A stretch of 64,000 nucleotides of DNA, taken from NCBI GenBank assembly GCA_963930775.1, contig OZ005689.1:8754854-8818853 (forward strand), given 5' to 3'. Positions 231 to 63,541 of this stretch are shown here, one piece after another; the stretch's first letter is position 1; each line of letters starts with the position of its first letter. Under the pieces are notes generated by a model. It saw nothing but the letters and a program-made list of their open reading frames with translations. It did not search any database and was not told the origin of the DNA. This DNA is from Cliona cf. orientalis. Taxonomy: Eukaryota > Porifera > Demospongiae > Clionaida > Clionaidae. The translations under genes were made by a program, and so were the position numbers.

Positions 231-650
231 CTGTTGATTGGGGCGCCGGGATACCACAACTTTCACTGGGAACAAATAATATATCAAAAAGCAGATAATA
301 TGTATCCAGCAATTGGTAATATCCTCCAAATAGGCAGACAGCGCCTGGAAGCAGTGGTCCTACTTCAAAGTTGAATACCTCATCGTCCTTAAAGAAATGT
401 CCAGCAAGCAGCTCATCCTACAAATATAAAGACAGTACTTGAATATGAAAATAGTATATCAACAAAACATATACCTCTTGTATGGTGCTGCTTTGGAGAC
501 AGACGCTCCTAAGAAGGACAACGTTAATACCAAGAATGTTAGGGGATTTCACTGGACTTATCCACTTCACCGGAATGGTAATGTTATCACTGTGATCATC
601 AGAGGGGATGGACTCTGGGCAAGATACCATAAGCCTCCGAGGAACTGCAG
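231..650 (-). CDS. Gene A exons 8-9: second FN3-like region
   Basis: Exon 650-475 (phase 1 to 0) and exon 417-231 (phase 0 to 1) join cleanly. The first reads ITIPVKWISPVKSPNILG with one Trp; the second reads ELLAGHFFKDDEVFNFEVG and ends in PAPQST. An FN3 fold is likely but the match is looser than exon 7. Confidence 0.65.
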
Positions 651-3600
651 CTGTACATGCAATGAACAGGATCTATGTAAGAGGAGTCTGGATAGCTATC
701 CTCATTAATTAAACTACACAGGTACTTTGTAGCATAGGTTCATTAACTGATCTTACTTCTTCGAATGAAAGTATCATTTTTGCATTCTGAAATAGCTGTT
801 ATGGGGAACTGCTCATCGTTATGATCAAAGTAGACCCAGAACGTATACTGGCCATCCATTGGGAGATCAATAAGAGTTGTAGTGTTTTTAGCATCAACAA
901 TGCTTGAGTTATTAACGCCATTAGCTTCATAAACGATCACATAGGAGCCTCCCTGAGGTGGCACTGCAAAGCCATCACTATTCACATTATACGCATGAAG
1001 TGTTGGTTGTTCCCAGCTCAGAATAACACTTGGTAGAGAAATATTTGAGGTTTGATCAACCGCCTGACATGTAAAATTCCCAGGAGCATTAGTGAAACCT
1101 ACAATCATTACAGATGCACATCAAATTTTTTGCCAGTGAGTCAAATACCTAATTACACAGGATGAGAAAGAGAGTCACCTTTTCTGAGAACCCTGACTGT
1201 ATCGTAGCTCGTTCCAGCTGGTGTCACGGCAAAGCACTGGTATATCCCCAGCAGATCATCAGAGGTACCACCTCTGTATCTTAGTGTATTGTCCCTCGAG
1301 TACATGGTGAAGTTTTGGCCATTTTTGTACCAGTGGATAGATGCAAGTGGGTCAGAAGTGCTACACGTGAGTGTAATGCTACGTTCGAAATAAGTCTTTG
1401 GTCTGATGGCATCATAACCACAGGGTTGCTCTGGATAGAGTTCCCTACAACCGCTAAGTTCAACAACTGGTTTATCTGTTGGATAACAAGTATTAGGTCA
1501 TAATGCATATCTAGGCCATTCAACATTAGGTAGTAGGTATAGTACCTAGACCATTTAAACAATCCCAGGCAAACTTACTTGCAACGATAATATTGAAGTC
1601 ACTGGTTGCCAGGACAGCTGCTGATGAGATAAGCTGACAACTATACGTGCCCGAGTCCTGTACGCTGGCTCTCATGGCAAGCAATTCTATTGGTAGGAAA
1701 GGATCGTCAAATACAGTAACTTAACAGGTAAAGGTCGTCAGAATTACTGGCTTACTGTCAGTCACAGAGAGCATTTGACCATCTTTGAGCCACTGCACCT
1801 GTAGTTTCTCAGAGTTCAGTATGTAGCATGTCAGGTTGACCCACTCTCCACCCTCTATTGCCCCAGCAGGGCCATCAATAATGACAACTGGATCAGTACC
1901 AGACCCACCTGCAATTGGTCACGCAATTTAAACACTGAGATACACAGAGCAACCTCCAGAGTAACATGATGACTGGAAGTGCAATATAGGTTAGTAGCAG
2001 CCAAGATGATAATACCTTGCGAGGCTTGTGATAGGGATACATTGTAAGTGGTACTATTTAAAGGCTCATGGTTGTAGTAGCCAGTACACTGGTAGCTTCC
2101 TTCAGTCTCCTCCACAGCTACCAGGATAAGGAGACTGCCATTACCAAGTATAACTTCATTCTGCATAGGGTTACAATTAGCAACTCAGTGCAGTTAAGGA
2201 CTGTCTCACCTGTGTTCGTCGATGAAAATATGCACATTTTCAGGAGCTAATACTAGTGCCTTGTGTGACAATTGAGTACTGATCATGATATTGAAATTGA
2301 AGCCCAACTCTAGTACTTTCATAATATGAAACAGTAATTTAAAACCATAAATATCTAATCAATTAAGTGGTATAACCGCAATTAACCACGCCCTCTGAAA
2401 CACTATTTGTAGTTTTCCAACATTGTTCCTGTCAAATTTTTGTTACCTTAAGTAGACAAGGTTAAATCTAAGCTGCTTTTCTTGTTTTTTACCGAGGGAT
2501 ATTCAGAAGAAACATCGTAGTAAGAAAAAAATCGCAAAAAACACCAATACAGCTACGCTGATGGGACAATCTTTCGCACACGCCCACAAAGCGGAGCGAG
2601 CAGTCAACTTATTCCTCAGCAGATCCTCGATAAATGTCTCGAAGTTTAGCTTTCCACCATTCAAACTGTGAAACAACCCCTGGAACAATGTTGGAACTCG
2701 CAGAACAAAAACAATCGCTCGAATGCTGCAACTATGCAGCTACGTAGCCGTATGCCACTATCGGGTGACGTCACGTCTAACCGCTAATTGGCCACAAATT
2801 TGCACGCTAAGTGGCAGTTAGTACGGTGCGCACAATAAGATTTGAGACAGTCCTTAAACGCACTGAGAAGAGTCACCGGTGCAAAGCTGTCAGCGAAGTC
2901 TAGACAGATAGTAAACAATCTCATCATCCATCCGAGTAATAATATTAATGCACATCCACTAAAATACAATTATTAACTACTAACAAGTATGTTTAATGTC
3001 ACAATCATGGGATAATGTGACTGAATACTACTAACAGCATGCTATTGTACAATCGAGTGCCAGTTAGTACAGCGTATGCGCAGATGAAGACCACACCCCT
3101 CACTGCAGGCCAAGAGTAGCTGCTCGTGTAATGGCAACGTTCTCACTCCGCTCGAACGTCGAATCTACCACCAGACCATGACAAAGAGCAGACATCGCCT
3201 CTCGCTTCGCTCGAGGCTCGGTGGCCTGCCGAGCAGGCCTGTCAAAACGCGCGGCGCTTGCGCCGCTCGCTTGAGCTCAAGCACTCGAGAATGCATCTCT
3301 ATGGCCCCTAGGCCCTGGCAACCTTGTTTGTGCACACGGCACAACAATTCTGACCAATCATGAGTCTTCTAAACTTGTAGGAGAGCGCATCTTTTATGCT
3401 CTCCAGGTTAGGACACGGACTATATAAGAAAATTGATCATCTGAAAAATATTTTTCGTAAAATTTCGTTGTATATATATAATGATTGAACGCAGTTAGCA
3501 TTGATGCTCACCTCATTCCCAGTGACTTCAACGCCATCTTTCATCCAGGTTGACTGTTCTGGTGGATTCACTGCACCAGTCTTACAGGGCAGAAGGAGAT

Positions 3601-5306
3601 GCTGCCCCACGGCAACACTCACTGTCTCCACCCCCTCACATACATTCAGATCTACATCTGTATTATAGCAAATTAAAAACAGAATACATAATATTATTGT
3701 ATAATACAAGTCAATTCAAATAGCATGTCATAGATATGTACCAGTGGCGTATCCAGGATTTGAAGGAGGGAGGTGCGCAAAATTTTTAGCCACGCCCCCC
3801 AAACGTTGACCACGCCCCTCATTCACGCGTTCTTGAAGATAGCTGGCTGACAAAGAAGGCTGTTTTAGGCCTAGTGACGATGAGAAAACGCTATTTAAGG
3901 AGCGAATTTTAGAGGCCAGTAAGTTTATTGTTGGTAGGAGCTGCCAGTTATCGATTATCGTTGACAATATTTGTGCTGAGGTACTGAGCTGGCTGTTGTG
4001 CCAGAGCTGAGGGGGGTGCTCCAGCACCCTGAGCTCCATGCTAGATACGCCACTGTGTACCATAATATTATTATAGGATGGGATCGCGATGAGCTTTCAT
4101 ATGCTACACTGGCCCTCTCAACAGGAGGGGAATTATTTAACAAGGCCAATCACAAAAGTAACAGACTGTTTTTAGTCATCATCCCCAGATGAATCCAAAC
4201 AAAAGTGACTCTGCAGTGTATACACCCTTTGGAGGGCAAGCCAAACATTCTACCATAAAGAGAAAGTGGGATTCCTGGAAGTCCTGCAAGTAAGACATGC
4301 TAGGGATTCTTCTGAGGAAATTCCCATAAGCTCAAGCTCCACAATAGTGATGTGTGCACAGTGTCATGATATGAGATGGATCAAATGCTCTAGTCAAGGA
4401 TGATTCTGCTATATTTCTATTTTATTATTTCCTAGTTGATAATGAAATGCACCTATTAACCACTAATAAGCCCAAAAGGTTCAATTTCATAATCACAAGT
4501 ATTATTTGTTTGTCCACCAATCGCTCTATAGAATATTATGTCAGTGGGCTAGATCTTTTCCCCATAACAATGATTTCAGTAGGCGTGATCAATAGTTATG
4601 TATTGGCATTATTAATCACAAACTACAATAGCTTTGTAGCATTCCTGATTATATCAAACATAGCAACTCCATCCACTTCAGTTAAGCCTCTCATCTCATA
4701 CACATACATTGAAGCTGATCATGATTGTATTTCTTAAAGGTGTTTCCTCAAACCACTATACCCACACTGTCACAGTAGGGTACCCCCTGAGATGTTGAGG
4801 TCCAGGCAAAACAGATGGGAGAGGAATATTTCCTCATCACAGCCACCAGGCTGAGGTACAAAATTAATGGCAAACATACCAATAACTTTCAATTGAGCTG
4901 CCTGGCTTGCTATAATATAGAAGTAAGATGCATCACCATCCTCTAGTAAGTGATAGCCATCACGAGCAACACACTCATAGTATCCATTGTTTTCCTGGGA
5001 AACTCCCACAATAGTGAGCTCGCTTCTGCTGTTATTGGGGTGAGTCGTGATGAAGTGAGAGGGGTGGTTACCATCAAGTAATTGTCCATTATAACGCCAT
5101 ATCAGCTCAGGTAACTTGTAGTTGTCGTTCCACAGGATGGTTGTGTTGCAGCTAAGGGTGACAGTTGTCCCTTGCAGAACTGACATTGACTCTGGCTCCT
5201 CTGTGAATGCTATGGGAGTGGCATGCAGCGTATATGGAAAGGCTGTGTGTGCAAGTTGGAGGAAAGAAGATATTGATATCAGCATGTGTAGTAATTCAAT
5301 ATCCAT
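231..5306 (-). CDS. Spliced Ig/FN3 cell-surface or secreted protein (gene A, 3' end outside window)
   Basis: Exons in transcript order: 5306-4880, 3657-3512, 2160-2016, 1908-1756, 1719-1579, 1475-1179, 1098-757, 650-475, 417-231, probably continuing at 24. All junctions use GT/AG, and the phases agree at every join (1,0,1,1,1,1,1,0,1), giving about 671 residues so far. Order: signal peptide (about residues 1-22), Ig1 to about 140, Ig2 (exons 2-3), Ig3 (exons 4-5), Ig4 (exon 6), FN3 (exon 7), a second FN3-like region (exons 8-9). The Ig folds show paired Cys, the central Trp (for example IHWYKNG) and the DSGTYSC/EGSYQC motif. N-glycosylation sequons are frequent. No TM helix is seen before the edge, so membrane anchoring is open. 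Intron 4 is only 36 bp. The domain type is confident; ligand and role are unknown. Confidence 0.85.
757..1098 (-). CDS. Gene A exon 7: FN3-type domain
   Basis: 342 nt, phase 1 to 1. VILSWEQP, GSYVIVYEANG and GQYTFWVYF follow the FN3 pattern of a strand-B Trp and a Tyr-rich C strand. Ends at AGAA/GTAAGA. Confidence 0.75.
1179..1475 (-). CDS. Gene A exon 6: complete Ig4 domain
   Basis: 297 nt, phase 1 to 1, after the acceptor TTATCCAACAG. It holds one whole Ig domain: ITLTCSTS, IHWYKNG and GIYQCFAV supply Cys, Trp and Cys. The frame has no stop and fits both neighbours. Confidence 0.8.
1579..1719 (-). CDS. Gene A exon 5: second half of Ig3
   Basis: After the acceptor CCTGTTAAG the frame reads ITVFDDPFLPIELLAM then DSGTYSC, completing the Ig fold begun in exon 4. 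The donor is GCAA/GTAAGT, phase 1. Too short to be found as a stand-alone ORF. Confidence 0.75.
1756..1908 (-). CDS. Gene A exon 4: first half of Ig3
   Basis: The acceptor ACCAATTGCAG is followed by 153 nt in phase 1 to 1. EGGEWVNLTCYIL and VQWLKDGQMLS give the first Cys and the Trp. The donor GACA/GTAAGC opens an intron of only 36 bp. Confidence 0.75.
2016..2160 (-). CDS. Gene A exon 3: second half of Ig2
   Basis: Begins after CCCTATGCAG in phase 0, matching exon 2, and ends at GCAAG/GTATT in phase 1. GNGSLLILVAVEETEGSYQC is the E-F strand part with the second Cys. Confidence 0.8.
2161..3511. other. Gene A intron 2, no other gene seen
   Basis: AT-rich filler with a GC-rich block around 3100-3330. 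Short open frames exist there on both strands, but none shows a recognisable domain or a splice context. Confidence 0.6.
3512..3657 (-). CDS. Gene A exon 2: first half of Ig2
   Basis: The acceptor ...TATAATACAG and donor GAG/GTGAGC bound 146 nt. The codon split with exon 1 gives Asp, so the protein reads KVI-DVDLNVCEG. The LLLPC and STWMKDG motifs are the B and C strands of an Ig fold. Confidence 0.8.
3742..4055. mobile_element. Non-autonomous hAT-like MITE (CAGTGGCG ends)
   Basis: Ends CAGTGGCGTATCCAGG and CTAGATACGCCACTG are inverted repeats, flanked by the 5-bp direct repeat TGTAC. The interior has the CCACGCCC motifs shared with 36736-37069 and with relics at 15780-15955 and about 34640-34925. 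It lies in intron 1 of gene A. A 5-bp duplication with CAG...CTG ends suggests a hAT5-like group (inference). Confidence 0.8.
4056..4769. other. Gene A intron 1, unremarkable sequence
   Basis: No domain-bearing frame and no clear repeat was seen between the MITE and exon 1, on either strand. Confidence 0.5.
4880..5306 (-). CDS. Gene A exon 1: signal peptide plus first Ig domain
   Basis: Starts at the ATG of MDIELLHMLIS, a good hydrophobic leader ending near HTA. The Ig domain follows with VTLSC, LIWRYNG and NNGYYEC, the two Cys and the Trp of the fold. The exon ends after KVI at GTATGTTTG in phase 1. A polypyrimidine tract followed by CACACAG inside this exon could act as an internal acceptor, also phase 1, just after the leader. 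Confidence 0.85.
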
Positions 5307-5994: not shown

Positions 5995-6149
5995 TTAAGT
6001 GGTCAATATTGCAATAATCATTAAGCTTGATGAGGGAGTCCATTTAGGAGTAGCTAGTCTGTGCAATATTCCCAGAGAGAATGAGCCTGTGAAGGAAACA
6101 GAGCCTAAACAGGGGAACGGCACTCCGCTCTGCAGTACCTGCGCGAGTG

Positions 6150-6420
6150 TGAGGGGGTACAGATCTTTCTTAGTCAGGGCGTTTAGCTTCCTAAAGTCAG
6201 CACAAAATCGCAAGGATCCGTCTTTCTTTGGCACAAGAATGACAGGACTAGCCCATGGGCTCATAGACGGTTGCACTATCCCCCTCTCCTGCATCTCCAT
6301 TACCATTTCTGTTATCTTCTCTCGGTAATATCATTGGAGCACGGTAAGGAGGCTGTTTCACAGGCAGTTTGTCACCAGTGTCGATATTTTGTGACACTAC
6401 GTCAGTAGCTACAGCCCAAT
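6150..6420 (-). pseudogene. Inverted 5' piece of a Ty3/gypsy reverse transcriptase
   Basis: On the minus strand, in two frames, it reads IDTGDKLPVKQPPYR and then SPWASPVILVPKKDGSLRFC with the DFRKLNALTKKDLYPL block. These are the first conserved blocks of a gypsy RT. The continuation of the same domain (DDILDTLGDAKYFSTLDLAS) lies on the opposite strand from about 6548, so this piece was inverted after insertion. The frame change near 6300 shows decay. Below 6150 the frame carries on with no match I recognise. Confidence 0.8.
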
Positions 6421-6539
6421 TCACTGTCATTTAGGGCAAATACATCAGTTGATTTCATTAACAATTGTTTAAAATTTTTAATTTGGTGAGCATCCAACGT
6501 ATCAGGAAAGTCCAACACACTTTATAATCGCTCGTAACG

Positions 6540-8190
6540 CTCAGGGCCCTGGAGTTGATGACATTTTAGACACTCTGGGGGATGCTAAGTATTTCAGCAC
6601 ATTGGATCTAGCTTCGGGATAGCTACTAGCAGATTCCTCTGGATGCTAATGAAATAGTGTTTACTACCCATCAAGAACTTTTTGAATTTGTTCGTATGCC
6701 TTTCGGCTTATATAACGCCCCGGCTACCTTTCAGAGGGCAATGCAGACTGTTTTAGCTGGTCTAGAAAGGCGTGACTGTTTTGTTTACATAGATGATCAT
6801 GACATTCTTGTTGTATCCTGTACGTTTGAGGAGCATCTCCGACACTTGGAGCAGATTTTTGATCGGTTAAGGAATGCCAATTTGCGATTAAAGCCGAAAA
6901 AGTGTAGCTTTCTTTGTAATAAAGTGACTTACCTTGGAAATGTTATTTCAGTTGAGGGAGTGCATCCTGATCCGGAGAAAATGGAGAAAGTTAAATCTTT
7001 TCCTGTGCCCCATTATGTGACACAAGTTCGTCAATTCATAGGCTTAGCCTCTTGCTATAAATGGTTCATGCCGAAATTTGCATGAATTGCTTCTCCTTTG
7101 CATGCCTTGCTAAAGAAAGATAATACTTTTCAGTGGTCTGTGGAATGTCCCAGTGCTTTTCAGCAACTTAAGGATTTGCTAACTTCTTCACCAGTTTTAG
7201 TCTTCCCCAAGTTTGGCCCCGGGTGTGAATTTATCTTGTAGACGGATGCGAGCTACGTGGGACTGGGAGCAGTTCTTTCCCAGTAGCAGGAAGATGGTAG
7301 TGTTCATCCAATTGCATATGCGTCAAGGTCTCTCGATCAACATGAATGAAACTATATGGAGTCACTGAGCTCGAAACTCTTGGTTTGGTGTGGGCTGTCA
7401 GGTACTTTCGCTCTTATCTCTTGGGCCACCGTACAATTGTTTATACAGATCACTCAGTTTGCTTATCACTTTTGAATCATCCAAGACCCTCTGGAAAATT
7501 AGCCAGATGGGCTATGACTATCCAAGAAATGGATTTGATAATAAAGCACCAATCGGGAAAATCCAACACCAATGCTGACGTGCGGTCGCGAAACCCAGTT
7601 TGTTTGAATCCCACCAATATCAATGTAAATTCTTGTATTGATGCTAATGCCCAGCCCCAGAAAGTTAACCCTAGGCTGAGTTATATGAATAAGCGCGATC
7701 CTAGTAGCAGTGATGGTAACCAACCCAAGGAGAGTGCCCTCAAACCCACGCAGCGTGCGGGCGATAGCAATAGTGACGGTGGCCATCCTGCTAGAGCCCT
7801 GTCCTGTGTAATAGGTGAGACCCTTCCTAGGCCAACTTTCAATAAGAAATGCCCTGCTGATGCAGTGGCTGATCATGAATTTGAAAAGAATTATCATACA
7901 GAAAATAAAAAGAAATTTATATTTGATTCTATTTCTGACTGTGACTGTATTCAAAAAGCCTCACATGAAATCCATGAGTTGCAGATCAAAAATAATGACT
8001 TGCTGCCGTATTTTTAGTATTTTGAGGAAGGAACCCTACCAGAGAACGAGCGAGATGCCCGCCATATTGTGTTCGAGAGTGAGAAGATGGAAGTAATTGA
8101 CAGAGTCCTTCGACACGATAGTGCTGCTGATCAACTGCAGTGGTGTATTGCAATGCCAAATCACCAAGTCTCAACCCAATTGAAAAGGAA
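6540..8190 (+). pseudogene. Decayed Ty3/gypsy pol: RT, RNase H and start of integrase
   Basis: RT continues with FSTLDLAS (frame shift and stop just after), FVRMPFGLYNAPATFQRAM, a YIDD box followed by two extra residues, and VTYLGNVIS. A stop ends the frame at 7083-7085. RNase H follows with TDASYVGLGAVLS, interrupted by stops, then YTDHS and the KSNTNAD motif near 7575. After a TAG at 8015-8017 the frame continues with YFEEGTLPENERDARHIV, the usual linker to integrase, and then fades out by 8190. No LTRs were found. This is a dead, truncated copy unrelated in age to the young element at 37.2 kb. Confidence 0.88.
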
Positions 8191-9344: not shown

Positions 9345-9412
9345 TAGCATAGCTATAATATTATTTTATGTACTGGATTACGTAAGCCAAGAACTTTGAT
9401 CGGCCATACTTA

Positions 9413-12224: not shown

Positions 12225-12789
12225 TCACGAACAGATCATGAGGTAGCTAATCCAAACAAGTGGCTACTAGGAAACTAGCTACCTTATTTGGGTACTGTGT
12301 GCCATGTGAAGATGACCAAACTGAGTCATCGTATATGTACTGACACTGTTTGGCTAATTTTGATAAAAATTTAGTAATAATAGGCTGCAATGGCAATGGA
12401 TATCATGGATTCATTACTTCTGTATTCATAATGTAAAATTCTTATACAACAAGAGTCTGTCTGATCCTACTGAAAATTAATTAATAGTGCTACTAATAGA
12501 AAATTGGAAGGCTTGGTACGCATAGTATGAGAATTACTATGCACAATCATGTTGAGAACTGCCAAGATCCATAGCTCCATTATGAGGAAGAGAGGTGGCT
12601 GTAGATGTGCATGTGTGTATACATGTGTGTATAGAGTGAGTGTATTATGTGCAGTGTACGTGTGTATGAGTGTGTAAAATGTGCATGAAGTAATGTGTAA
12701 GTAGCTATGCATGTCAAAGAGGATAGTACGTACTAAGTGCATGCGCAGATAATTATCATTATGCCATGATTAAGAATTTGTGAACATAC
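12225..12789. other. Region downstream of gene B, TG-rich stretch
   Basis: 12600-12710 is a degenerate TG/TGTA microsatellite. No TM or tail exon matching gene C was found here, although gene B should need one if it were membrane-bound. Confidence 0.5.
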
Positions 12790-13154
12790 TGAAATTCACT
12801 GCTGTTGACACCTCGATTTCAAGGTCTTCTTCAACAACAGTTATGGTAAGAGTGTAGTTGTAGTTAATTTGTAGTCCAGTTGTAATGACTTCCACGACTG
12901 ATCTATTCCATCCTGTGTAAACAGACTGCCTATTAATCACTGGCTGCAATTCAACACCGGTAGTGGCTTGAATTGTAAGCATGTAGCTTGCTCTCTGATA
13001 GTCACAAATAAAAGGAGCCTGTACACATATTATTGATGATTGTAACACTATTATAGTGAATTCTTGCAAACCGTAAAGCTAATGTTAGCCATTGGAGTTC
13101 CATCATTTGAAAATGTCACTACGACAGTGACATCTGACTGAAACAGCTGTGGTG
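12790..13154 (-). CDS. Gene B last two exons: lineage-specific CDYQRA domain
   Basis: Exon 13154-13072 (phase 1 to 0) and exon 13018-12790 (phase 0 to 1). Motifs GTPMANISF, APFICDYQRASY and NYTLTITVVE match gene C exons 4-5 closely. I do not recognise the domain by name. It is beta-rich and may be a diverged FN3. Confidence 0.8.
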
Positions 13155-14301
13155 CTGCAAATGCATGATCAGTAATAATGAGCCATGTGACGATTGTCAT
13201 GGATACATAGTACTATTACTGAGAATCATACCAATAGGAAATCCTGCAGTCACTGATGCAGGAATACTTAGACCCACATCACTCACTGCCGTAACATTGA
13301 CAGTGATGATCTGACAGTACTGCATACCATCCTCAAAGGTGTGGACATAGCTAGTCTCAACATATTCAAGCAGATTTTCAAGTACATCCCCAGAGCATTT
13401 ATTCATTATTTGAATGTTGTAGCTCTCTACAGGATATTTCTGGTGGGAATACGGAGTTTTCCACTGAATTATCAGCTTTGATGAATTATTGAAGACTAGA
13501 ACTGGCTNNNNNNNNNNNNNNNNNNNNNNNNNNNNNNNNNNNNNNNNNNNNNNNNNNNNNNNNNNNNNNNNNNNNNNNNNNNNNNNNNNNNNNNNNNNNN
13601 NNNNNNNNNNNNNNNNNNNNNNNNNNNNNNNNNNNNNNNNNNNNNNNNNNNNNNNNNNNNNNNNNNNNNNNNNNNNNNNNNNNNNNNNNNNNNNNNNNNN
13701 NNNNNNNTCTATGACAGTCAAAATCACAGAAGCAGGTCCCAACACGGCAGAAACTGTTGCAGCATCCTGTAAATCCAGCTGCTACACAAGTACCATTTAG
13801 AGGAGGTGGCGTAGTCATGGAGGGACCTAGGGAGGGATCGAGAGAGGAAAGCACACCATGGCTTCTGCAATTACAAACTATATGGTTTTGATGATCTTAC
13901 TTGGTGAAATTTTCATACGGATCGAGGCAGGTAATAAAGGTTGCGTGCAAAGCGCACGCGATTTTTTTAGCCACACCCCCTCAGAAGCAAACCACGCCCA
14001 TTTTTGGGTGTTCTATCGCGATCATAGCAACGTAGCAAGTCTTCTTGTGTCCAGAACGGTGCGCAAACCCCTTTTATCAAGATCATGACATTACTTACAT
14101 CATCTCTGAGAGAGACATCTGTCTAGCTCTCTTAGATTGGAGCTATACCTTCTGCTAACAAACAGCATGCACGCTGCACGGTGAGTGTTCTGATGACCGA
14201 GGCTGCCTCAATTGTACATACTCCCTTGTAGCTACTTGTAGGAATAGTGGTTGGGGTGGGAACAATAGTCGAGGTAGTTGTGGTAGTAGCAAAAGTGAAA
14301 G
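12790..14301 (-). CDS. Spliced SMB/FN3 surface protein, paralogue of gene C (gene B, interrupted by an assembly gap)
   Basis: Exons in order: 14301-14149 (Thr-rich, TFATTTTTSTIVPTPTT), 13826 to the gap at 13708 (somatomedin-B-like: NGTCVAAGFTGCC, CFCDFDC), from the gap to 13232 (FN3: LIIQWKTPY, YPVESYNI, QIITVNVTAVSD), 13154-13072 and 13018-12790. The last two encode the domain NGTPMAxI-CDYQRAxYxLTI-YNYTLTITVVE that also forms exons 4-5 of gene C; exon lengths (83/229 versus 80/220 nt) and phases correspond. Phases fit at all visible joins. No signal peptide exon upstream and no TM exon downstream were found. If the last donor is ignored, translation ends nine residues later at 12770, giving a secreted form. 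Confidence 0.75.
13232..13507 (-). CDS. Gene B exon: FN3 domain
   Basis: Open from the gap to the donor at CCTATTG/GTATGA, phase 1. It shares YPVESYNI, QI(I/L)TVNVTAVS and GFPIG with gene C exon 3, so the two exons are direct paralogues. Confidence 0.8.
13508..13707. other. Assembly gap of 200 N
   Basis: A run of exactly 200 N, probably a placeholder of unknown true size. It interrupts gene B between the Cys module and the FN3 domain, so one or more exons may be hidden. Confidence 0.99.
13708..13826 (-). CDS. Gene B exon: somatomedin-B-like Cys module, cut by the gap
   Basis: After the acceptor CCCTCCCTAG the frame reads SMTTPPPLNGTC and then a C-x6-CC-x3-C-x4-C-x-C-x3-C pattern typical of SMB-like repeats in invertebrate surface proteins. 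The rest of the module lies in the run of N. Confidence 0.65.
14149..14301 (-). CDS. Gene B exon: Thr-rich linker with Cys pair
   Basis: 153 nt, phase 1 to 1, between CATGTACAG and GAAG/GTATAG. The Thr run looks mucin-like and the end reads RACCLLAEG. No domain is named. Support is the splice sites and the open frame. Confidence 0.5.
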
Positions 14302-22219: not shown

Positions 22220-22225
22220 TACTAT

Positions 22226-31925: not shown

Positions 31926-32125
31926 CAGGTTAGGTTTACTTTTAGATACTACCGCCGTCGGAATTTCACAGCTTTACAGCACTACATTAACACTTCCTGC
32001 AACTGCGCATGACAACACGCCCTTTCAATTAATTACTGATTTACTGCGCATACCATCGCGCGCAGGTTGTTGTCATTAATTATATTTCATCTCTGAAATA
32101 ATAAAAAAAAAGCGGGAATGTAGGC

Positions 32126-32135
32126 TATATATAGG
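32126..32135 (+). promoter_or_regulatory. TATA box of the Merlin transposase
   Basis: TATATATAGG lies 68 bp upstream of the transposase ATG, within the element. Confidence 0.55.
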
Positions 32136-32202
32136 GGGGTGCATCAACATCCATCACAAAATTCAATCACAATCTTCTCCTATCAACTATCCTCAACCAG
32201 TT

Positions 32203-37180: not shown

Positions 37181-37392
37181 TGTAATAACTGTGTTTCCTG
37201 ATCTGTTTAATTAGTTGAGTTGTGTTCCTGATTTAGTGATGTAATTGTTAGGTTTATTAATGACGTAATCGTATTGCATAATGCTGTTCTACTTATTGTG
37301 TATGCTCATGTGATATGATCAGTCTGTGCTAAGTCAGTAAAAGACACAAGTACAATAAGACTCAGACTACGCTAGCCCACAGCGGCGTTGCA
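37181..37392 (+). repeat. 5' LTR
   Basis: 212 bp, TGTAATAACTGTG to GCGGCGTTGCA. No strong TATA box is seen. It lacks the 7-bp stretch (GTGGTTT) present in the 3' LTR. Confidence 0.95.
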
Positions 37393-37393
37393 T

Positions 37394-37411
37394 TTGGAGG
37401 TCCCGCCGAGA
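37394..37411 (+). promoter_or_regulatory. Primer binding site
   Basis: TTGGAGGTCCCGCCGAG begins just after the 5' LTR and opens with TGG, as expected for pairing with a tRNA 3' CCA end. The tRNA was not identified. Confidence 0.65.
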
Positions 37412-37458
37412 CCAAAGGTGGCCAAAATACGCAGTGGGACTGTGTTCGTTCGGTTATT

Positions 37459-51637: not shown

Positions 51638-52290
51638 TCAGCATTCGGTGGTCATAGTTTGTGGCTTAGATTTTTCACCCTTATTCACAACGCTGTACAT
51701 GGGAAGGGCCGCATTTCCACTGGCATCACTTGCACCTTGCGATTGGCCTTGGCTCTGCTCCTGCTGAGTCAGCGTGGCAGTCCCTACAGCTCGATTACTC
51801 TGCTGGCTAGTCAGCGTCCCAGCCTGACTCATTTCAGTGTACTCATCCTCAAGAAATGTAACACCGCCATCTTGCACCATGATCCGCATCGTTGGTGAGA
51901 GTTGAGCTGTATGAGTCACGGTGATGTAGTCAAACACAGGACTTGCAGAGGAGCCAGCTGCAGCAGGGCATGGTTGTTGGGTGTAAGCATTGCCAACTCT
52001 CGATGACTGCTGCTGGTTACCCGCAGCGAAAGGTGGGTAGGTGAAGTTGGTGGTGACGGCTTCACTGCGGGTTGTGGCACTACTGCTCATCATCGCCTGG
52101 TAAGAATCATCCATAGAAGGTTGGGGTTCCCTCCCTCCATGTTGGCAATGCTGCACTTTCCAAAGGTATTCTTGCTGCTGTGGTGAGAGGTGTATTTTTG
52201 GCTTTACCTCTTGCTGTATCTGATAGTCGTTGATGGTCTCGTAGACAGATGCCTGCGAGGCACGAACATCATTACCACCGCCACGAGAAA
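51638..52290 (-). CDS. Gene C exon 7: cytoplasmic tail
   Basis: Acceptor TGTATCTTTCAG, phase 1, stop TGA at 51640-51638. 217 codons, Gln/Ser/Thr-rich and likely disordered, with five YxxI/V/M motifs. The joining phase to exon 6 fits, but the 3.5-kb intron between them is long for this genome, so linkage rests on phase and content. Confidence 0.75.
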
Positions 52291-55200
52291 CTGAAAGATA
52301 CATGTTACATCCTTTAATGGAGTGGTACTTTATTCTTTTTTTCCCGAAATAAGCAAATAATCCTTCACTAAATAATATAATTGTTCTTGAGCTTTGCAAT
52401 TGGAGGCAAATAAGAATTTGCTAGCTTCTATTGATGATCTTTAGTCTCATCCCCAAGGAGGAAAAGGGTCTGGCCGGAATCCTTGAGCCTAGCTGCTCTG
52501 AGGAATTTCCATGCGACAATGAAATCGCAGCTCCGTCACTATTACATATCAAACTTAGGCCAGACCAATTTAATTTGTTGTTGCTCGGATATTGTGAGAT
52601 AAAAATTGGACTGAGAAATCGAAAAAAAAAAGAAAAAAGCAATTAATTGGGGTGTGGTTATAGACCACAATCTAATTAAGACAGACTAATGCAACTATCT
52701 AGGACCAGAGAATCAAGATAAAATACAAAAACTACTCTACTGTACATAAGCTCCACCCAACTTAATTTATTTTCTGTTTGCCCAAAAATTGGAGCGAGCG
52801 AATCCGTGCAACAACTTAATTGATCTGGCCTTATTGCAGGAATGCAATGTCTCTATACTTGCTGTACTGTAGCTATATAGCTATATATACTGATCAATCA
52901 GATTCAAACTGATCACGTGCACACGCAGCAATAATATATTATAGACCAATAACTGAAGATTCAGCCAAAATTCACCAGACCCTTTTCCCTCCTCGAGAGG
53001 ACGACACTATATATAGATGATCGTTGGAATTAGGTTCGGTAAAGGGTGCTTGATTTAAGTTACTATTGTATTAGTTCCAACAGTTTGGCTCAGATATTAT
53101 AATATAGATACCAGTTACTTAACCAACTATTTTCAATTAGGTCACCTAAGGTCCTTGTAAACACGTGAATACTTAATGCTACTTACATACAAAGTGACCC
53201 TTTACCATAATATTATGACCTTGTATTGGGCACTGATTATCAGTCGATATCAGAATGATTTAATAAATTACCAGGGTATACTGGAAAAGCTAGCGCCGCT
53301 TAACTTCCTACAGTGAATGTTATAGAGGGTTAAATTGCATTGATGGACTAGGGATCCTAAAGCATGTACACTATAACACTATTATTACGTCCAGAGTCCC
53401 AATCAACAAATCGCTATTCGGCCTCGCGATGAGGTAATTATGATGAAATGATGATGAAATGATGATGAAACCTATGATGAAATTGGGGTGAAAACTGCTT
53501 CAAAATGTTTAGCGCGCATGCATGTCAGGGTGTTGAGACCCAGAATTCGAACCAAGCGTAGAAGAGATCGTGGACTATCGATGAGATAATATTATGGCGA
53601 TTCCCTCAGTTCGCTTTCTTTGGCGAGCTCGCACTCGGGGGGATTTCCCTATTCAGTCTAGCACATGGCAGGCAGGTGGAGGTCACGTCCGGGTCAACCG
53701 GCTCAAGCCGCGCGCCCCAATATTCGCGTATACGGAGCATGCGCAGTTTGTCAAAGTGTCCTGTAGTTCGAATTATGGCGGCGTATTCATGAGGGACTCT
53801 GGACGTAGTCTCTAAGTTTTTACATCCCGAGTCCCAATTCACAAATCGAAATTCGGCCGCTCGATGAGGTAATTGTGACGAAACCTATGATGAAACCTAT
53901 GATGAAACCTATGATGAAATGATGATGAAATTATGATGAAATTGGGGTGAAGACTGCTTCAAAATGTTTAGCGCGCATGACAGGGTGTTGGGACCCAGAA
54001 TTCGAACCTAGCGTACAAGAGATCGTGGACTATCAATGACATATGGCGATTCTCTCAGTTCGCTTTCTTTGGCGAGCGAGCTCTCTGGGGGGATTTCCCT
54101 ATACAGTCTAGCACATGGCAGTGGAGGTCACGTTCGGGTCAACCGGCTCAACCCGCGCGCCCCAATATACTGCGTGTACGGAGCATGCGCAGTTTGTCGA
54201 TGTGTCCAAGTTCGAATTATGGCGGCGTACAGTAAGCGCGGTGCAATACTTATGAGGGACTCGGGATGTAGTCTCTAAGTTGTTCATTACATCCCGAGTC
54301 CCAATTCACAAATCGAAATTCGGCCGCTCGATGTGGTAATTATGACGAAACCTATGATGAAACCTATGATGAAACCTATGATGAAATTATGATGAAATTA
54401 TGATGAAATTGGGGTGAAGACTGCTTCAAAATGTTTAGCGCGCATGACAGGGTGTTGGGACCCAGAATTCGAACCTAGCGTACAAGAGATCGTGGACTAT
54501 CGATGACATATGGCGATTCTCTCAGTTCGCTTTCTTTGGCGAGCGAGCTCTCTGGGGGGATTTCCCTATGCAGTCTAGCACATGGCAGTGGAGGTCACGT
54601 TCGGGTCAACCGGCTCAACCCGCGCGCCCCAATACTGCGTGTACGGAGCATGCGCAATTTGTCGATGTGTCCAAGTTCGAATTATGGCGGCGTACAGTAA
54701 GCGCGGTGCAATACTTATGAGGGACTCGGGATGTAGTCTCTAAGTCGTTCATTCATTATTACTCACCGAGTCCCAATTACAAACTCTCAACTTTGCTGTT
54801 ATGAGGTAATTATGAGTAATGATGATGAAACCTATGAGGTAATTCTCTTCAAAATTCACAGCGTTCAAGAAACCTTCTCGAAGCACGAAAATCTAGCCTA
54901 GCGCTTAGAGACACGACGGACTATCCATCGAAATTCTTGGCGTCTCCCGCCTCACGTTGATTGTCGACTTCGCCTGCGAAGGTCAGAGAAAAGGGGGATT
55001 TCCCTCACCGTTCTCCAACACGCGGATGCGCGCATATGCGCAGGCGCCTTACAACTCTAAGAGCGGTCATTTTGAATGGCTATAGCATTGAGTTTTTAGT
55101 GGCGAGGAACACTGACGGGGACGAGGTGAGTGTTAAGTTTTTCATTATCTCCCCAGTAGCAATTTACTTTTCTGTGGTTATGAGGTAATTATACGTTAAT

Positions 55201-57656
55201 TATGATGAAACCTATGGTGTAATCTCTTAGGTAATCTATGAGGTAATTATGAGAAATTTCAGGGCCTCGTTGGAGCCTTGCTGAGACTTGAAAATCAGTA
55301 AATATGTAGAGTATCTTACGCGTGTATCCAGCGAATAGATTATAAGCTGAGCGCTACTTTCTCTAATAAGCACTGTTGGTTGAACTTCACGTGTTTTCTT
55401 GGCTTACGTAATGCCGTGGATAAATAAAGCTAGCCTTGCGCTATATATAGCACGCATCACTGTCACAAGGGGCTGGCCCGCGCGCGACTGCAGCAGCGTG
55501 ACCAACCTGAAGTTCGGAAGGAATACTGTGCTGTCGAGTTCGTCTCTGTGATTGAAGCATCGAAACTTGTCGCTATCAAGGTTGAGAGTCGATCTTAGAC
55601 GCCATCTCCATGATTTCTGGGGCGAGCATCGATCGATGTGTACGCATTCTATTGACGACCTTTTACCACATGCACCATTATACTATGCAGCTACTGGGGA
55701 GATGGTCAAGGGTTCATAGGTAATATACAATCCAAACTCCTATGACATTGTAGCTAGCTAGCTAAATATATTATAATACCACAGTTCCTCCCAGGCCATT
55801 GAAGGTTAACGTATAAAGTTGGGTACTCACGTCTCCACTCTTTCTTCTTTCTTACAATTGAGACAACAAGAATGGCTACAATGATAATGGCAGTCAATAG
55901 AAGGAACACCAGAATACCAACTGGCACTCCGATATAGACGGCAAGTTCATGTCGCGAGTGGCCTAATGGTAAAGCATCAGAGTTTCAAGTATTAAAGGTG
56001 ATGTCACTTTCGAGACATACCTGAAGACGTACCTGAGGCTCCATGCCGGAACAGCGTCGCTGCAGTTAGTTATGATAATATGTATGAATTTTGTGTATGT
56101 GTGTATAAGGGTATGCATGCATGGACGTGCGTATGTGTGCTTGTGATTGTGTGTGTGTGTGTGTGTATGCGCTGGAGTATGACATTGTGCATGTGTAGGA
56201 CATTGTATGTGAGTGGGTGTGTTCTCCACCTAGCTGAAAGAAAAGATCAGAATGTTACATAAATTAGACGTACTGAAATTTTTTGACTTTGAGACTTCGA
56301 TTTTGAAGTGATTTTCGACGACAGATATGAAGAGTGTGTAGTTGTGATCGATTATCAGCATTACCACCTCCATAATATTTCTATCACTTCCAGTGTAAGT
56401 GGACTGAATGGGCTCTACTACTACATTTGGGTCAGTAGTATCCTCTATTGTGAGCACATAGTTTGCTCTCTGATAGTCACAAATAAGTGGGGCCTGCAAA
56501 AGTTATTCACAGTAGTAAATTTTTGTTACAGCATAAAGTCTATAATGGTCTCATAGACTATAATCAGTATTCACGGTTGAAATTTGAATTTTGCTTGGGG
56601 AGAACATTAGACTAACCTGAAAGGTGATGCTAGCCATTGGAGTGCCATTTCTTAGAAAAGTCACATCAACATCAATGTCGTTGAATTGGTGAGGTGCTAA
56701 CATAAAGAATAATAATAATAATGGTTATCAGATTTTTTGTCTGATACGTGTACAACTACAATTTCCATGAAAACATAACCTTTTAAAATTAATTTACCTA
56801 TTGGGAAACCCATGGCTGCTGATCCTGGTAGACTCGATCCCAGAGCACTCACAGCCGTCACATTGACAGTGAGGATCTGACAGTACTCCACATCGCCATC
56901 AAAGTCGTGGACAAAACTAGTCTCATTGTACATTTGGGCATTACTGAGCACATCAGATTCTGTTGAACTCGTGTTCACAAGTAGAATGTTGTAGCTCTCT
57001 ACAGGATACTGCTCATTTGAATATGGAACTTCCCAGTAAATATCCAGCTGAGATGAACTGTTAATCGCTAGAACAGGATCAGGAGGAAGAGGGGGACCTG
57101 AATAAAATTAAGAGGATTGCTTAATCTCGAAAATGAATGGATCACCCATTCTATCACCTGTGAGATGATCTAGTTAATTCTGACTCACCAATGACGATCA
57201 GTTCAGCTGGATCACTGAATTCGGTACCAGAAAGAAATGCACCACAGCTTATCATAGTGTCATTGTTTTCCACTGTGGCTGGAATGGTGATGAATGCTTC
57301 TGTACTAGAACTGCTGTAAGTTATGCCCCGCTCAGCAAAGCTGTCCTCGTCATTACTGTTTTCCATGGTTGTAATTGTGACTCCTTCATGATTAACTAGA
57401 CTCCAGAATGGTGGACTGCAGCCAATACCGAGTATACATTCACAAGTAAAATTTGCAGCATTCATTTGATTCAAAGGGATACTAATTTTACCAACTGGTC
57501 GAATAATGAGGTCCTGCATAACTAACAGATTGTATTTCAGAAAGAAATTATTGGTTCAAATTATAGTCAACATTAATTTTTGATTATAAGTGACTTACCA
57601 CCAGGTTCAATGAAGTATACCAAGAAAAGCGTCAGCACACTCAAATAATACATCAT
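51638..57656 (-). CDS. Complete type I Ig/FN3 receptor with tyrosine-motif tail (gene C)
   Basis: Exons: 57656-57599, 57521-57189, 57097-56798, 56696-56617, 56493-56274, 55962-55831, 52290-51638. All GT/AG, all phases agree, total 1,776 nt = 591 aa. Signal peptide MMYYLSVLTLFLVYFIEPG; Ig-like domain (20-130, FTCECILG ... ISCGAF); FN3 (131-230, LDIYWEVPY); CDYQRA domain (231-330) shared with gene B; juxtamembrane SHSRHELA; TM helix about 339-367 (VYIGVPVGILVFLLLTAIII onward), stop-transfer RKKK; tail 372-591, Gln/Ser-rich, with Tyr391 (SVYETI, ITIM-like), Tyr438 (YQAM), Tyr496 (YITV), Tyr525 (YTEM) and Tyr573 (YSVV). These look like SH2-docking sites (inference). The last intron, 3.5 kb, holds the promoter-like tandem array. 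The start lies 1.27 kb from divergent gene D. Confidence 0.88.
52400..53390. other. Part of gene C last intron, nothing further seen
   Basis: Short frames without domains. No repeat from elsewhere in the window. Confidence 0.45.
53391..55200 (+). repeat. Tandem array of 430-475-bp CpG-rich, promoter-like units
   Basis: Units begin at about 53396, 53827, 54293, 54768 and 55145 (diverged). Each has GAGTCCCAATT, a (GATGAAACCTAT)n micro-repeat, TTCGCTTTCTTTGGCGAG, GTCAACCGGCTCAA, GAGCATGCGCA (NRF-1-like) and AATTATGGCGGCGTA (YY1-like) followed by a short ATG frame and GGGACTCGGGATGTAG. Units 2 and 3 are almost identical. It lies antisense within the last intron of gene C. Confidence 0.9.
55831..55962 (-). 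CDS. Gene C exon 6: transmembrane helix
   Basis: 44 codons, phase 1 to 1, after the acceptor TTACCATTAG. About 29 hydrophobic residues, then RKKKEWR. The plus strand here resembles a tRNA A-box by chance. Confidence 0.87.
56085..56175 (+). repeat. TG microsatellite
   Basis: GTGTGTG runs in the intron between gene C exons 5 and 6. Confidence 0.85.
56274..56696 (-). CDS. Gene C exons 4-5: CDYQRA domain
   Basis: 56696-56617 and 56493-56274. NGTPMASITF, APLICDYQRANYVLTI and HNYTLFISVVE. The exon break falls at the same codon and phase as in gene B. Confidence 0.85.
56798..57097 (-). CDS. Gene C exon 3: FN3 domain
   Basis: Exactly 100 codons, phase 1 to 1. YPVESYNILLVN, QILTVNVTAVSA and GFPIG match the gene B FN3 exon. 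Confidence 0.87.
57189..57521 (-). CDS. Gene C exon 2: Ig-like domain
   Basis: Acceptor ATCTGTTAG, phase 1. A downstream TATGCAG could also serve but is out of phase. 111 codons with the two fold Cys and a Trp in PPFWSLVNHEG. Confidence 0.82.
57599..57656 (-). CDS. Gene C exon 1: signal peptide
   Basis: 58 nt from ATG to the donor GGTG/GTAAGT, phase 1. An in-frame second ATG follows directly. The same length as the isolated leader exon at 9869-9926. Confidence 0.82.
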
Positions 57657-58565: not shown

Positions 58566-58922
58566 ATCATCCTGGATTTCTGCAACTTAATTAACACATA
58601 CAGCCTAGGCTGCGAGGTGCGAAATTTCGATGGCAGGTAGGCACTCTCGTATAACCTAACCCAAATTTATATGTAAGCTCAGACTAATGTCCAAGTCATC
58701 AGCATTGTGAAGCCACTTCACACGCGCATGAGTACGACCGCAGCGCGCTAGCGGGCACTGATCGTGCATAGTGCAAAACCACACACGCGTCACTGCAGAC
58801 ATTCCAGAGCTAATTATCGAGTACTAGACCGCAAGCGGCTTATAAGCAGCTTGCCTCGTGCTCACTGAAAAGCGCCGCCCAGAAGACAATCTCTTCGAGG
58901 ACTACTGTGTTCACTTGAGGCA

Positions 58923-61900
58923 ATGGCTGGACTGAAAGAACTAACCTTTCCGTCTTCTGCGACGAAGAAACTCAGAGTCCTACAGTTTTTGTTGCAGCTA
59001 CTGCTGTTCAGTTGTTTGGAGACGGTAGCGCGAGGTATGTTGACAAACGGCTTGACCTTCCCTCTTCTGTAAGCGAAAGTGGATGCATTTGAAAGTGAAC
59101 GGTGTATTTGAGGCAGTATACTAACGCTCGGTTCCGCAAATCGGCCATACTATTTCGTGCGCGCGGTACACAAATAAAACTGGTATCACATGCGTGTGGC
59201 ATGCATGGTTGTAGCTGTAGCATGCATTTTGCATGCATGCAGCTAGCTATAGCGTTGATGAATATACGGATAAGGTTGCTTGCTCTACAGCCTAGACGGC
59301 TAGGTTATCAGGCAGGACAATAGGATGACCGGAGAGGTGCAGCCCTCCAGTGCTTTTGGGATCATTGCCAGTTCACAGATTGTGTGTCAAAATTTCCGGT
59401 AAACTTAATGCAGCTGCACACATGCAGTACGTGAGTTTGAGCGTATTGATCATGAGCTATCCAGATCCGTAGCAATATCATAGAAGTTGTCGACCAAACC
59501 TTCCTGGTGTTACGTATATTATTATACTGTCATGCGAAGATAATAGTAGAAGCCAATTCCACATTATGTGACATATACATCCTAGTAACCTAAAAATCTA
59601 ATCTTTGAGAGAAAAGATACATATGCAATCAGACTTTATGGCATAGATACCAGACCTTGGAAGTTTGCACTGAAAATACTTAACTATACTGTCCAATTTA
59701 AATTAATAATAATAAATTATGCATACACACAGGAACAAATGTGAGGTTACAGCCAACGGACCTGACAGTGGACGTCGGAACATGGGCCACCTTTAACTGC
59801 ACCATATCGTGCGAGTTTCGAGACACACACACGGTCAGATGGTTTGTTGGACACAGCCCCAATAATAGAAGACTGGTTGATGCAAACTTTCATGATAGAA
59901 CTGGAATACAAGTCGAACTCAGAAATATTGTAGACTGTGGTGAATCGGAAACTGGTGACCAAGTTGTGACTGCCCAGCAACAACAGCTAAATGTGAATGT
60001 CACTTCAGTGGAAAGATTTAATAGAACGGCCATTCAGTGTGCAGCACTGAGAAAGGGACCCAATGACTCAGATCTCTACAGTCATTATGGAGTGATACTT
60101 GTCAATGGTATGCATTAGATCATCTATACAATACTTGTAATTTCTCAGTCCTATTAGATACTTTATGGATGTGGATGGTGATAATTAACTTTAAGTGGCA
60201 TTCCTACTTGAGTGCAAACCACAAATTGTGGCTCTCTAAAATAATTAATCCGAAAATCTTAATGGAGAAAGTAAATATTAAGACAAACCTTTCCCTCATA
60301 ATAGTAATGTAGTGATGGGCAAGGTGGCAATAAGGAGAGATCGATATCTTTTATTGATATCCAATATCGTAATAATAATAGTAATGTATACGAAGTAATG
60401 GGCAATGTAGCAATAAGGAGAGATATCCCTTAATTAATATTCAATGTCATGATATGTTGTTGCTGGAATTTCAAACTGTTTAATGGAAAGAGTTATATAA
60501 CAATAGTATGTTATGTACATCTAGTGAGATCCCCCATTAATCCTTGGCTGTCACTGAGGGGGGTAGGGACTGTAGGGTTCAAATTACTAAGATTCTTGGA
60601 TACACTGAATATTATTACGGTAACCATGGTGTGGAACTCTACTTAGTCTAGTGAATATGGATACCCCTTACCCCAGCTTCCCTATAGCTCTACTGAGTAG
60701 CTAGTTTCACACTTTATGAGCAGAGTGAAATTCAGATGGTCATCTATAGTCTGCCGTACGTAAATTGAGATAAATTGTTGGTCTAATGAAATAAATTAGA
60801 GTGGTGTAGCCCCTTCTAGACCAGCATGTACTTACAGGCACAGCATAGGTTTCCCTTGTTTACCACATACACCTTACAGAAAAAGGATTCAAATAATCTC
60901 CTTCCCCAAAGAATAATTCAGTGATACATTTACAAGGAGTAGTGACAATAGTCCTTTAGCGAGTACCACAGATAATAATTTCCATGAGAAACTAGCTTAC
61001 CTCATCTATTGTCCCTACTACCCCAGTAGCTATATACCACAAGGATCAAACGCACGGTTGAATTTTAGTGTACCTGGCCTTTTTTGGCGTGTTGCATATG
61101 AGCAACACATGTCGGATACCGTACATTATCTGCATTAGAAATGCTTCTGTTTTTTGCATAATAATAACATGATAAGCAGTGGCCATGGCACGATCCAATC
61201 CATACTGTATATGTACGTGACTTCATGGCATGAGACTGGGAATCACATAATAATGTCCATGTATGGCCTACTCCAATCACTGTAGCCAATATCTAATGTA
61301 TGTATACCTGATATCACATCCTAATACATATAGAGCTGCTGCCAGGAATTGTAATTAACTTTCAGTACTAGTATTGACATTAAATTTTTTTGACCACAAT
61401 TGTGTTCTTCTGGGAATAAAAATTAATGTTACTTCATAACAATGACAAAAGAGTGCGCTTTTAGGATTGAATTTAAATTCCCATAGTTCCTATTCAGTAG
61501 CCTTTGTACAAACACCTATTTTCCAAGAAATGAAGCACTTGATATGGCGATCATGTATGCATACAATGTTACTCCCAGGTGAGTTTCGATGTGCATCGGG
61601 GAACACAGTGTAATCCTTGTCAATGACAACTATTTTATTAGATAGCAGTAACACAGTATGATCATGTTTTATTCTGATGTTAGTCACTAAAGAGTGCATG
61701 GGCTGTCTTCATCTTTAAATTATAACTCCCACCCATTCAAATAGCCATTGTGCAAACACCATTTATCTGAGAATTTAATAAGAACATGATATGATGATTG
61801 TAATACCATATCATAGAGTCGGTAGACTCTATAAGTAGGGATGGCCCGGATATGCCATATATGTAATACATTACAAATACCCAAATATCTCAAAATCGGT

Positions 61901-63541
61901 AATTTTGTGAAATTTCTAAGTGTGAAAATCAGAATCTCCAGCAAATTGTGCATCTAACAAGACCAAGATCATTCATCAAAACAGTTGTACACGTCAGAAC
62001 CAGATGTTCAAAAAATAGGCCATTTCTCATTCTTTCTTTCTTCTTTCTTTCTTTCTAGTTTCTTGGGCTAGCTCAAGACTGCCTCCACCGCTCATCAAAC
62101 TTAGAGTATAAATCCACTCTATTTTGTAGCGCGCAGTGCAGTGGCACGCTAGTTAGTCGTTATCTCGATAGGACGTAATAGTGGGCGTGTACAGCGCATT
62201 ATCGAATGGGTGTGTCTGATACGCCATTTTTATGATATAATGCGCATGCTCGGAATATGTTGCCATGGTGAAGTCATGTGACAGCGCCTGGAGGCTAGCT
62301 GCGATACTAGCTCGTACATCGCTAGCTCGTGCAATGGCGCGCTGGACCGATCATGGATATGAAGGTTCAAGGCTCGAGGAGCGGTATATAAGGCGCTAGG
62401 CATAGGCGAGCTACTCGCTAGCGCTTGCAGCACTAGTGCTATGCTGGATCGATCATAGATATCATATATACCATCGCGATACGAAGGCGCAAGGCTCGAG
62501 CAGCGGTATTTTAATAACGTACAGATCATAAAATTATGCCGGGTAGCTAGCTGCTGCCGACAGTAAAACTTATAACTTAGTTTTCTTCCTAAGCGTTAAG
62601 TCTCATCACTACTTGGGCCACCTAAAGCACTGAGCCTTCTTGGTCATCCTGTTCATTGTCATAATAATTATGAACGCAAGTTAATGAGGGGCATGGCAAA
62701 GAATTTTGTGCACCTCCCATCTTCCACTTAATCAGAAATATGAGCAAACCATGTAAGATGACATTGATAAATTTCACTAAGTGCAATAAAAAAGAACAGA
62801 AACAAGTATAAAAACAATTGAATAAAATTGAAGAATGAAGTAGGGATGGCAGGATCAAAAAGTACACAAACAAGAGATAATTGCATCTACTATACATCCC
62901 TACGCTTGCTTTTTGAGGGGTGCAAATATGACCAGTAGTAATGCAATTGACTCAAAACTGATAAACTCGAACCATCGTGACAACTAGGGAACAACCTGCA
63001 CGAATGTTTCCCACATACTGCACTCAACAAACACATCAACCATGATTAATAGGTGTACAGTAGTCGAGAAAAGTAAGCGTAGGGATGTATAGTAGATGCA
63101 ATTATCTCTTGTTTGTGTACTTTTTGATCCTGCCATCCCTACTTCATTCTTCAATTTTATTCAATTGTTTTTATACTTGTATTATTGTTATGTTGGTTCT
63201 CTACAATAATCCTCAGATGAGATACATACGTGTGTAGATGTGCCAATGTCTGCAGGGAAAACATGATATTATCAACACACAAAAACATTGTACTATTATG
63301 GTTTTCTGAGAATGAAGTGTTTGTCAAAAATGGGTGCGCTAGCTGTCTGTTCTGATATCTAACCCACTTTGCCACAACTCCACATTCTATATTAGCTAGC
63401 CTAGTAATTTTCTGAGAAATAAATGAAATCTATAATATTATAGCTAGATATGACCGTTTTCATACTTTTCAGATGAGTTGGAGGAGCCAACGCCAACATC
63501 AGAGAGTTCCATATCCTCGTCCGTTCATCCCTCACAAGCAG
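58923..63541 (+). CDS. Ig-domain surface or secreted protein (gene D, 3' end outside window)
   Basis: Exon 1 58923-59034: ATG, polar head, then LQFLLQLLLFSCLETVARG, a clear signal peptide; donor CGAG/GTATGT, phase 1. Exon 2 59733-60107: 125 codons, one Ig-like domain (WATFNCTISCEF, VRWFVGHS, RTAIQCAAL), phase 1 to 1. Exon 3 63473-63541: 23 codons, Ser/Thr/Pro-rich linker (PTPTSESSISSSVHPSQ), phase 1 to 1. More exons may lie in the 3.4-kb intron or beyond the window. Same architecture style as genes A-C, opposite orientation. Confidence 0.78.
60298..60455 (+). repeat. Tandem duplication of ~78 bp in gene D intron
   Basis: TAATAGTAATGTA, GTAATGGGCAA or GTGATGGGCAA, and GCAATAAGGAGAGAT occur twice in a row. 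Confidence 0.85.
61468..61815 (+). repeat. Diverged ~240-bp direct duplication
   Basis: AATTCCCATAGTTCCTATTCAGTAGCC... at 61468 and AACTCCCACCCATTCAAATAGCC... at 61709 share the order CAAACACC, GAACATGATATG or GCACTTGATATG, and GATCATG/GATTG. Confidence 0.55.
61797..62300 (-). repeat. Interspersed ~520-bp repeat, copy 2
   Basis: Reverse complement of 15960-16482: AGAGTCGGTAGACTCT palindrome, ATGGCCCGGATATGCC, GGGCTAGCTCAAGACTG, ATAATGCGCATGCTC and CCATGGTGAAGTCATGTGAC. Confidence 0.78.
62339..62515 (+). repeat. Imperfect tandem duplication, ~110 bp
   Basis: GCTGGACCGATCATGGATAT...AAGGCTCGAGGAGCGGTAT and GCTGGATCGATCATAGATAT...AAGGCTCGAGCAGCGGTAT. Confidence 0.8.
62801..63181. mobile_element. 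Foldback element, second copy
   Basis: Arms 62801-62913 and 63070-63181 are near-perfect reverse complements (GAAGTAGGGATGGCAGGATC, CATCCCTACGCTTGC), with about 155 bp of unique apex. Same family as 14640-14945. Lies in an intron of gene D. Confidence 0.9.

Follow-up and report, generated by a model that had tools for sequence, protein, structure and literature searches.

A possible paired-receptor gene complex of Ig-type surface proteins, duplicated in tandem on C1

The nearest published layout that we found to the locus described here is that of the fester family (FF) and fester co-receptor (FcoR) pairs in the fuhc locus of Botryllus schlosseri, where, according to the available parts of a review, the pairing is supported by expression and haplotype data and FcoR consists of a variable-type Ig, a sushi domain and two C2-type Ig domains (PMC12065747). 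The Hydractinia Alr genes are presented, in the accessible portions of two papers, as a clustered polymorphic Ig family, within which Alr1 and Alr2 show high polymorphism and a genetic link to fusion (PMC11067881, PMC11999971). Candidate recognition molecules of sponges, as far as the available text goes, are the aggregation factors and the Geodia Ig adhesion molecules and receptor tyrosine kinase (PMC5450542, PMC11999971). For grafting in Amphimedon, the accessible part of the study reports that neither cell-adhesion genes nor those of aggregation-factor-mediated adhesion were significantly enriched, and names no Ig candidates (PMC5450542). Here we analyse a window of 64,000 nucleotides, C1:8754854-8818853, in an assembly of 216.8 Mb and 149 contigs labelled Cliona cf. 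orientalis, which underlies all comparisons below. We tentatively suggest, at slightly less than even confidence, that the window carries a single unit of a paired-receptor gene complex, duplicated in tandem at C1:8.63-8.93 Mb, in which the protein of gene D and its relatives (D-type) would be the partner or ligand of the receptor encoded by gene C and its relatives (C-type). Our literature search on sponge Ig/FN3 clusters and sponge receptor kinases turned up no paper that we recognised as a description of this layout. The aggregation factors are a gene family different from C and D.

A preliminary description of the window had proposed four modular genes, A to D. Gene C is complete, D stands as its divergent neighbour and A is a separate Ig/FN3 gene, while B had been wrongly joined. 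Whole-genome searches with the exons of genes C and D gave the paralogs named P1, P4, P5 and P6 for C and D643, D692, D858, D870 and D932 for D. With the boundaries that we chose, the seven exons of gene C splice to 591 residues with the sole stop at the end, all junctions are GT/AG and the intron phases are 1,1,1,0,1,1. The exons of gene C are:

57599..57656, minus strand: exon 1, signal-peptide leader, ending in phase 1 (donor score 5.2)
57189..57521, minus strand: exon 2, Ig-like domain, phases 1-1 (acceptor picked by phase match with P1, P4 and P5)
56798..57097, minus strand: exon 3, FN3-like domain (FN3-1), phases 1-1
56617..56696, minus strand: exon 4, first half of the second module (FN2a), phases 1-0
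56274..56493, minus strand: exon 5, second half of the second module (FN2b), phases 0-1
55831..55962, minus strand: exon 6, transmembrane span, phases 1-1
51638..52290, minus strand: exon 7, cytoplasmic tail with SVYETI, YQAM and YTEM motifs (acceptor of our own choice)

As judged from its predicted protein, gene C is a type I membrane receptor with a leader, an Ig-like domain, an FN3-like domain, a second split module, a transmembrane span and a long tyrosine-rich tail. Its exon boundaries and phases are kept in P1, P4 and P5, and leader candidates stand at the matching place in P1 and P4; the proposal that the exons are modular and mostly in phase 1 is borne out by the gene structures. The Pfam fn3 family is matched by FN3-1 in eight of ten family members (E up to 1, best 2.6e-4), the window's own FN3-1 exon being unmatched.

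Gene D points away from gene C at a distance of about 2.1 kb, and two of its exons lie in the window:

59733..60107, plus strand: gene D Ig exon (V-type fold), phases 1-1, divergent from gene C
63473..63541, plus strand: gene D stalk exon, rich in Ser/Thr/Pro

The Ig exon has an Ig fold with paired Cys and the core Trp, and belongs to the V-type Ig domains. A second stalk exon (near 70065) and a hydrophobic C-terminus (70385-70461, both in window coordinates) follow past the window end in L027, with counterparts in L076.

The genome searches placed six C-type and six D-type members within 302 kb. The FN3-1 exon of C has 11 genome matches, six at C1:8.63-8.92 Mb on the minus strand and five at C1:16.38-16.48 Mb on the plus strand, and the Ig-like exon has eight (itself, P1, P4, P5, a match on C18 and another three, all weak, at 16.4 Mb). 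The Ig exon of D likewise has eight: itself, strong matches at 8691932+, 8932214+, 8870060+ and 8858469-, a weak one in the cluster at 8643371+ and two weaker ones elsewhere. Four head-to-head pairs are formed, C/D, P4/D870, P5/D932 and P6/D643. A plus-strand D-type gene lies at most 15 kb to the right in four of the six C-type members, where random placement gives 1.2 on average (P = 0.007; the distance limit was chosen post hoc). The identities among C, P5 and P4 (53, 47 and 42%) run parallel to those among D, D932 and D870 (52, 48 and 42%), and with P6/D643 added the correlation is r 0.95, a value reached by one of 24 pairings. These matching identities fit a duplication of the pair as one unit, followed by divergence in step, as far as can be told from sequence.

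The tails of C, P5 and P4 have S[VL]YETI[ND]xYQ and YQxM in common, and a predicted immunoreceptor tyrosine-based inhibitory motif (ITIM), [ILVS]xYxx[ILV], is found in three of three: SVYETI in C and P5, SLYETI in P4. YTxMSQAGTLT is common to C and P5, the P4 locus ending short of there. A genome search with the C tail returned C, P5 (1.6e-5) and P4 (0.027). A hydrophobic C-terminal segment with no tail behind it, by eye resembling a glycosylphosphatidylinositol (GPI) signal, is present in P1, L018, the C18 single-Ig gene and D870; some C-type members (P1 and those at 16.4 Mb) appear to end GPI-like instead of in a signalling tail. The C18 gene (L066, C18:5.549 Mb) has one C-type Ig exon, and its GPI-like hydrophobic end lies in a short exon behind it.

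The Ig-like exon of gene C seems to change faster than FN3-1: its identity to P1, P5 and P4 is 50, 42 and 35%, against 58, 53 and 47% for FN3-1, which places it 8-12 points lower in three of three comparisons. For four recent duplicate pairs we calculated the ratio of nonsynonymous to synonymous substitution rates (dN/dS) with our own Nei-Gojobori script, and obtained 0.48 for gene A and its copy, 0.22 for B/P1, 0.35 for L014/L016 and 0.46 for L017/L018. The preliminary description had also proposed cassettes shared within the cluster. C and D do belong to tandem families and some homology blocks stop at or near exon ends: L017 and L018 are 92.7% identical over little beyond the FN3-1 exon, and in L014 and L016 the homology spans the Ig-to-FN3-1 stretch. 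The somatomedin B-like (SMB) module which it counted among the parts of the cluster could not be tied to any of genes A-D. At C1:16.47-16.48 Mb, L018 and L019 hold two 3,321-bp stretches, 10.1 kb apart and 100% identical, the outcome of either very recent duplication or faulty assembly.

Vertebrate paired ITIM receptors and CEACAM-type families bring membrane forms with ITIM-like tails and GPI-like forms together in one cluster, and the present cluster, with ITIM-like tails beside GPI-like forms, appears similar to them in arrangement and Ig fold only. As in Botryllus, so far as those pairs are described in the available text, there are two Ig-type surface-gene families with each member beside a cognate of the other, in multiple clustered pairs, and ITIM or other YxxI/L/V motifs occur in the long tail of one partner; here such adjacent cognates are seen in four of the six C-type members, which suggests a resemblance of layout only. 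The ectodomain of C, with one Ig-like, one FN3-like and one further module, is unlike that of FcoR as given there, and unlike the described Botryllus pairs the partner is a single Ig exon with a hydrophobic C-terminus. By description only, and within the portions of the papers available, the C and D proteins share with Alr the clustering of single-pass Ig-superfamily membrane proteins, low mutual identity, pseudogenes in the cluster and a V-set-like fold that in Alr is evident from structure and not from sequence (PMC11067881, PMC11999971). C differs from Alr in its FN3-like modules and its D partner, no divergent partner family being described in those portions. The C/D pairs are assigned to neither the FF/FcoR nor the Alr family.

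We speculate that the D-type protein would engage the C-type receptor either in cis or between touching cells, and that engagement would lead to tyrosine phosphorylation at the SxYETI (ITIM-like) and YxxM (p85-type) sites, where SH2 proteins might be recruited. GPI-like members could then be adhesion or decoy forms that do not signal. A recognition or immune-type role had already been proposed for the cluster, and the tandem families, the conserved tail tyrosine motifs and the lower identity of the Ig-like exon are in line with it, whereas the lack of any sign of gene-wide positive selection in the four duplicate pairs is not, nor is the absence of an alternative haplotype of the cluster from the search matches. 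The pairing of receptor and partner, absent from that proposal, makes a recognition role more plausible, yet the role is one that we infer.

Several observations weigh against the pairing and its function. The dN/dS range of 0.22-0.48 means that gene-wide positive selection is unsupported in the four recent duplicate pairs. Four pairs are few, and for P6/D643 the evidence is a single FN3 exon together with a weak Ig match. The arrangement also varies: D692 is convergent with P1 and D858 lies on P4's strand; gene B has no D neighbour within 15 kb, and the whole-genome D Ig search gave no D-type match near the 16.4-Mb C-type group. Searches for a leader of gene D and a leader scan in P5 found none, and the spliced second module of C and of P1 gives no Pfam match, fn3 included. 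The C-terminus of gene D, with LRRL as its last residues, may be a membrane span with a short tail instead of a GPI signal.

Gene B had been described as a fusion of an SMB module with FN3. Its parts are:

13708..13826, minus strand: SMB-like Cys exon, cut by the gap, which goes with a Cys-module array family
13508..13707, no strand: run of exactly 200 N, a scaffold-gap length, inside 'gene B'
13232..13507, minus strand: gene B FN3-1, cut by the gap, 57% identical to C and 88% to P1
13072..13154, minus strand: gene B FN2a
12790..13018, minus strand: gene B FN2b
12532..12587, minus strand: remnant of a P1-like C-terminal anchor exon with two in-frame stops

Up to the N run, the FN3-1-to-FN2b block matches P1 at 92% identity; at its other end the match stops within a few bases of the FN2b exon end. 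The SMB-like exon and its surrounding intron share 86% identity with a Cys-module array at C1:7.63 Mb. Because the two halves are not contiguous but flank the N run, and one of them matches a foreign family down to the intron, we dropped the joined gene, and this corrects a chimeric gene model. At the position of the anchor remnant P1 has its hydrophobic C-terminus, and from the two stops gene B may be either a pseudogene or a gene for a secreted form. The window's Cys exon is not recognised as SMB by Pfam; a distant relative matches Somatomedin_B at 0.023. The SMB-like arrays at C1:6.57 and 7.63 Mb (L054-L059) form a separate surface or secreted gene family, and Calx-beta-like frames are found close to them (PF03160 at 0.028 on L059, others by eye).

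Gene A has seven exons inside the window with 550 open residues:

4880..5306, minus strand: exon 1, leader and Ig1
3512..3657, minus strand: Ig2, first half
2016..2160, minus strand: Ig2, second half (a frame which on its own has no Pfam match)
1756..1908, minus strand: Ig3, first half
1579..1719, minus strand: Ig3, second half
1179..1475, minus strand: Ig4
757..1098, minus strand: FN3

Its ectodomain segment, which reaches from some 760 bases beyond the left edge of the window to position 6023, recurs as a copy of 90-96% identity at C8:4.943-4.948 Mb. As the match ends on both sides (the unmatched flanks are short, 442 bases of L033 and 772 of L021) and three repeat-like stretches of the C1 copy are missing from C8, we consider a plain haplotype of gene A less likely. 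Near the expected 3' end of gene A lies a lone transmembrane exon, L025:6247-6369, 56% identical to that of gene C, and at C1:12.17 Mb a similar transmembrane exon is found with a YESIND tail, 2.8 kb from a weak D-like Ig match. An IRAK/RLK-like kinase gene (L025:12-1393 and L024:9446-9667, C1:8.734-8.736 Mb, minus strand) has its best PDB matches in IRAK4 (2.8e-10) and plant receptor kinases, and a copy of one of its kinase exons, partly 91% identical, occurs at C1:24.27 Mb. A fusion of gene A or a C-type receptor to this kinase was considered, as the transmembrane exon lies upstream of the kinase exons, but the kinase carries an unassigned N-terminal domain and a basic linker of its own, as in the unlinked relative L049, and is therefore read as a separate gene.

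An ordinary Ig/FN3 family of cell adhesion or development, expanded by tandem duplication, might also give this picture, C and D adjoining since one duplicated block held both, with no functional link. This is a real though doubtful possibility, as the dN/dS values agree with it, FN3-rich clusters are common in the genome (the 150 scored FN3 matches cluster at several other places, none of them in the window), and I-set and V-set domains rank with the most abundant ones in the sponges covered by one study, according to the part of it available (PMC12909245). The recurrence of signalling motifs and opposed orientation in strongly diverged copies argues against it. Those ITIM-like and YxxM motifs, along with the GPI-like forms, would also suit a family that senses microbes or symbionts through inhibitory and activating outputs, and is no self/non-self system; nothing in the data indicates a microbial ligand, however, and we find this quite improbable.

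That the pattern is largely an artefact of assembly or annotation, through mis-scaffolding, collapsed or duplicated haplotypes, or pseudogenes, is very improbable. The N run and the stops in gene B and the identical L018/L019 pair would speak for it, but gene C is intact across all its residues and the family copies diverge by tens of percent, and are therefore not haplotypes of a single locus. As for the paired-receptor complex itself, its fullest version would be an independently arisen recognition complex of a non-bilaterian animal, in which divergent pairs of a signalling Ig/FN3 receptor and a short V-type Ig partner were co-duplicated and co-diverged, with GPI-like decoys, and served contact-dependent self/non-self recognition; this we hold to be unlikely.

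Between the receptor genes the window also holds retroelement copies (5998-8014, 22140-23821 and 37333-42504) with reverse-transcriptase and gag-pol-like frames, named by eye. A 300-residue open frame at 32080-32979 has an ISXO2/IS1595-type transposase domain (8.1e-23), and tandem repeats occur at 27187-27884 (91 bp x 7.7) and 53439-54753 (467 bp x 2.8).

Even if its function were plain adhesion, the locus would clearly illustrate the parallel duplication and divergence of two unrelated Ig families. If the pair functions as we suggest, and the animal is a sponge, linked pairs of receptor and partner with tyrosine-based tails would have arisen, or persisted, in animals other than tunicates and vertebrates, and the locus would be a compact and genetically tractable candidate for sponge recognition.
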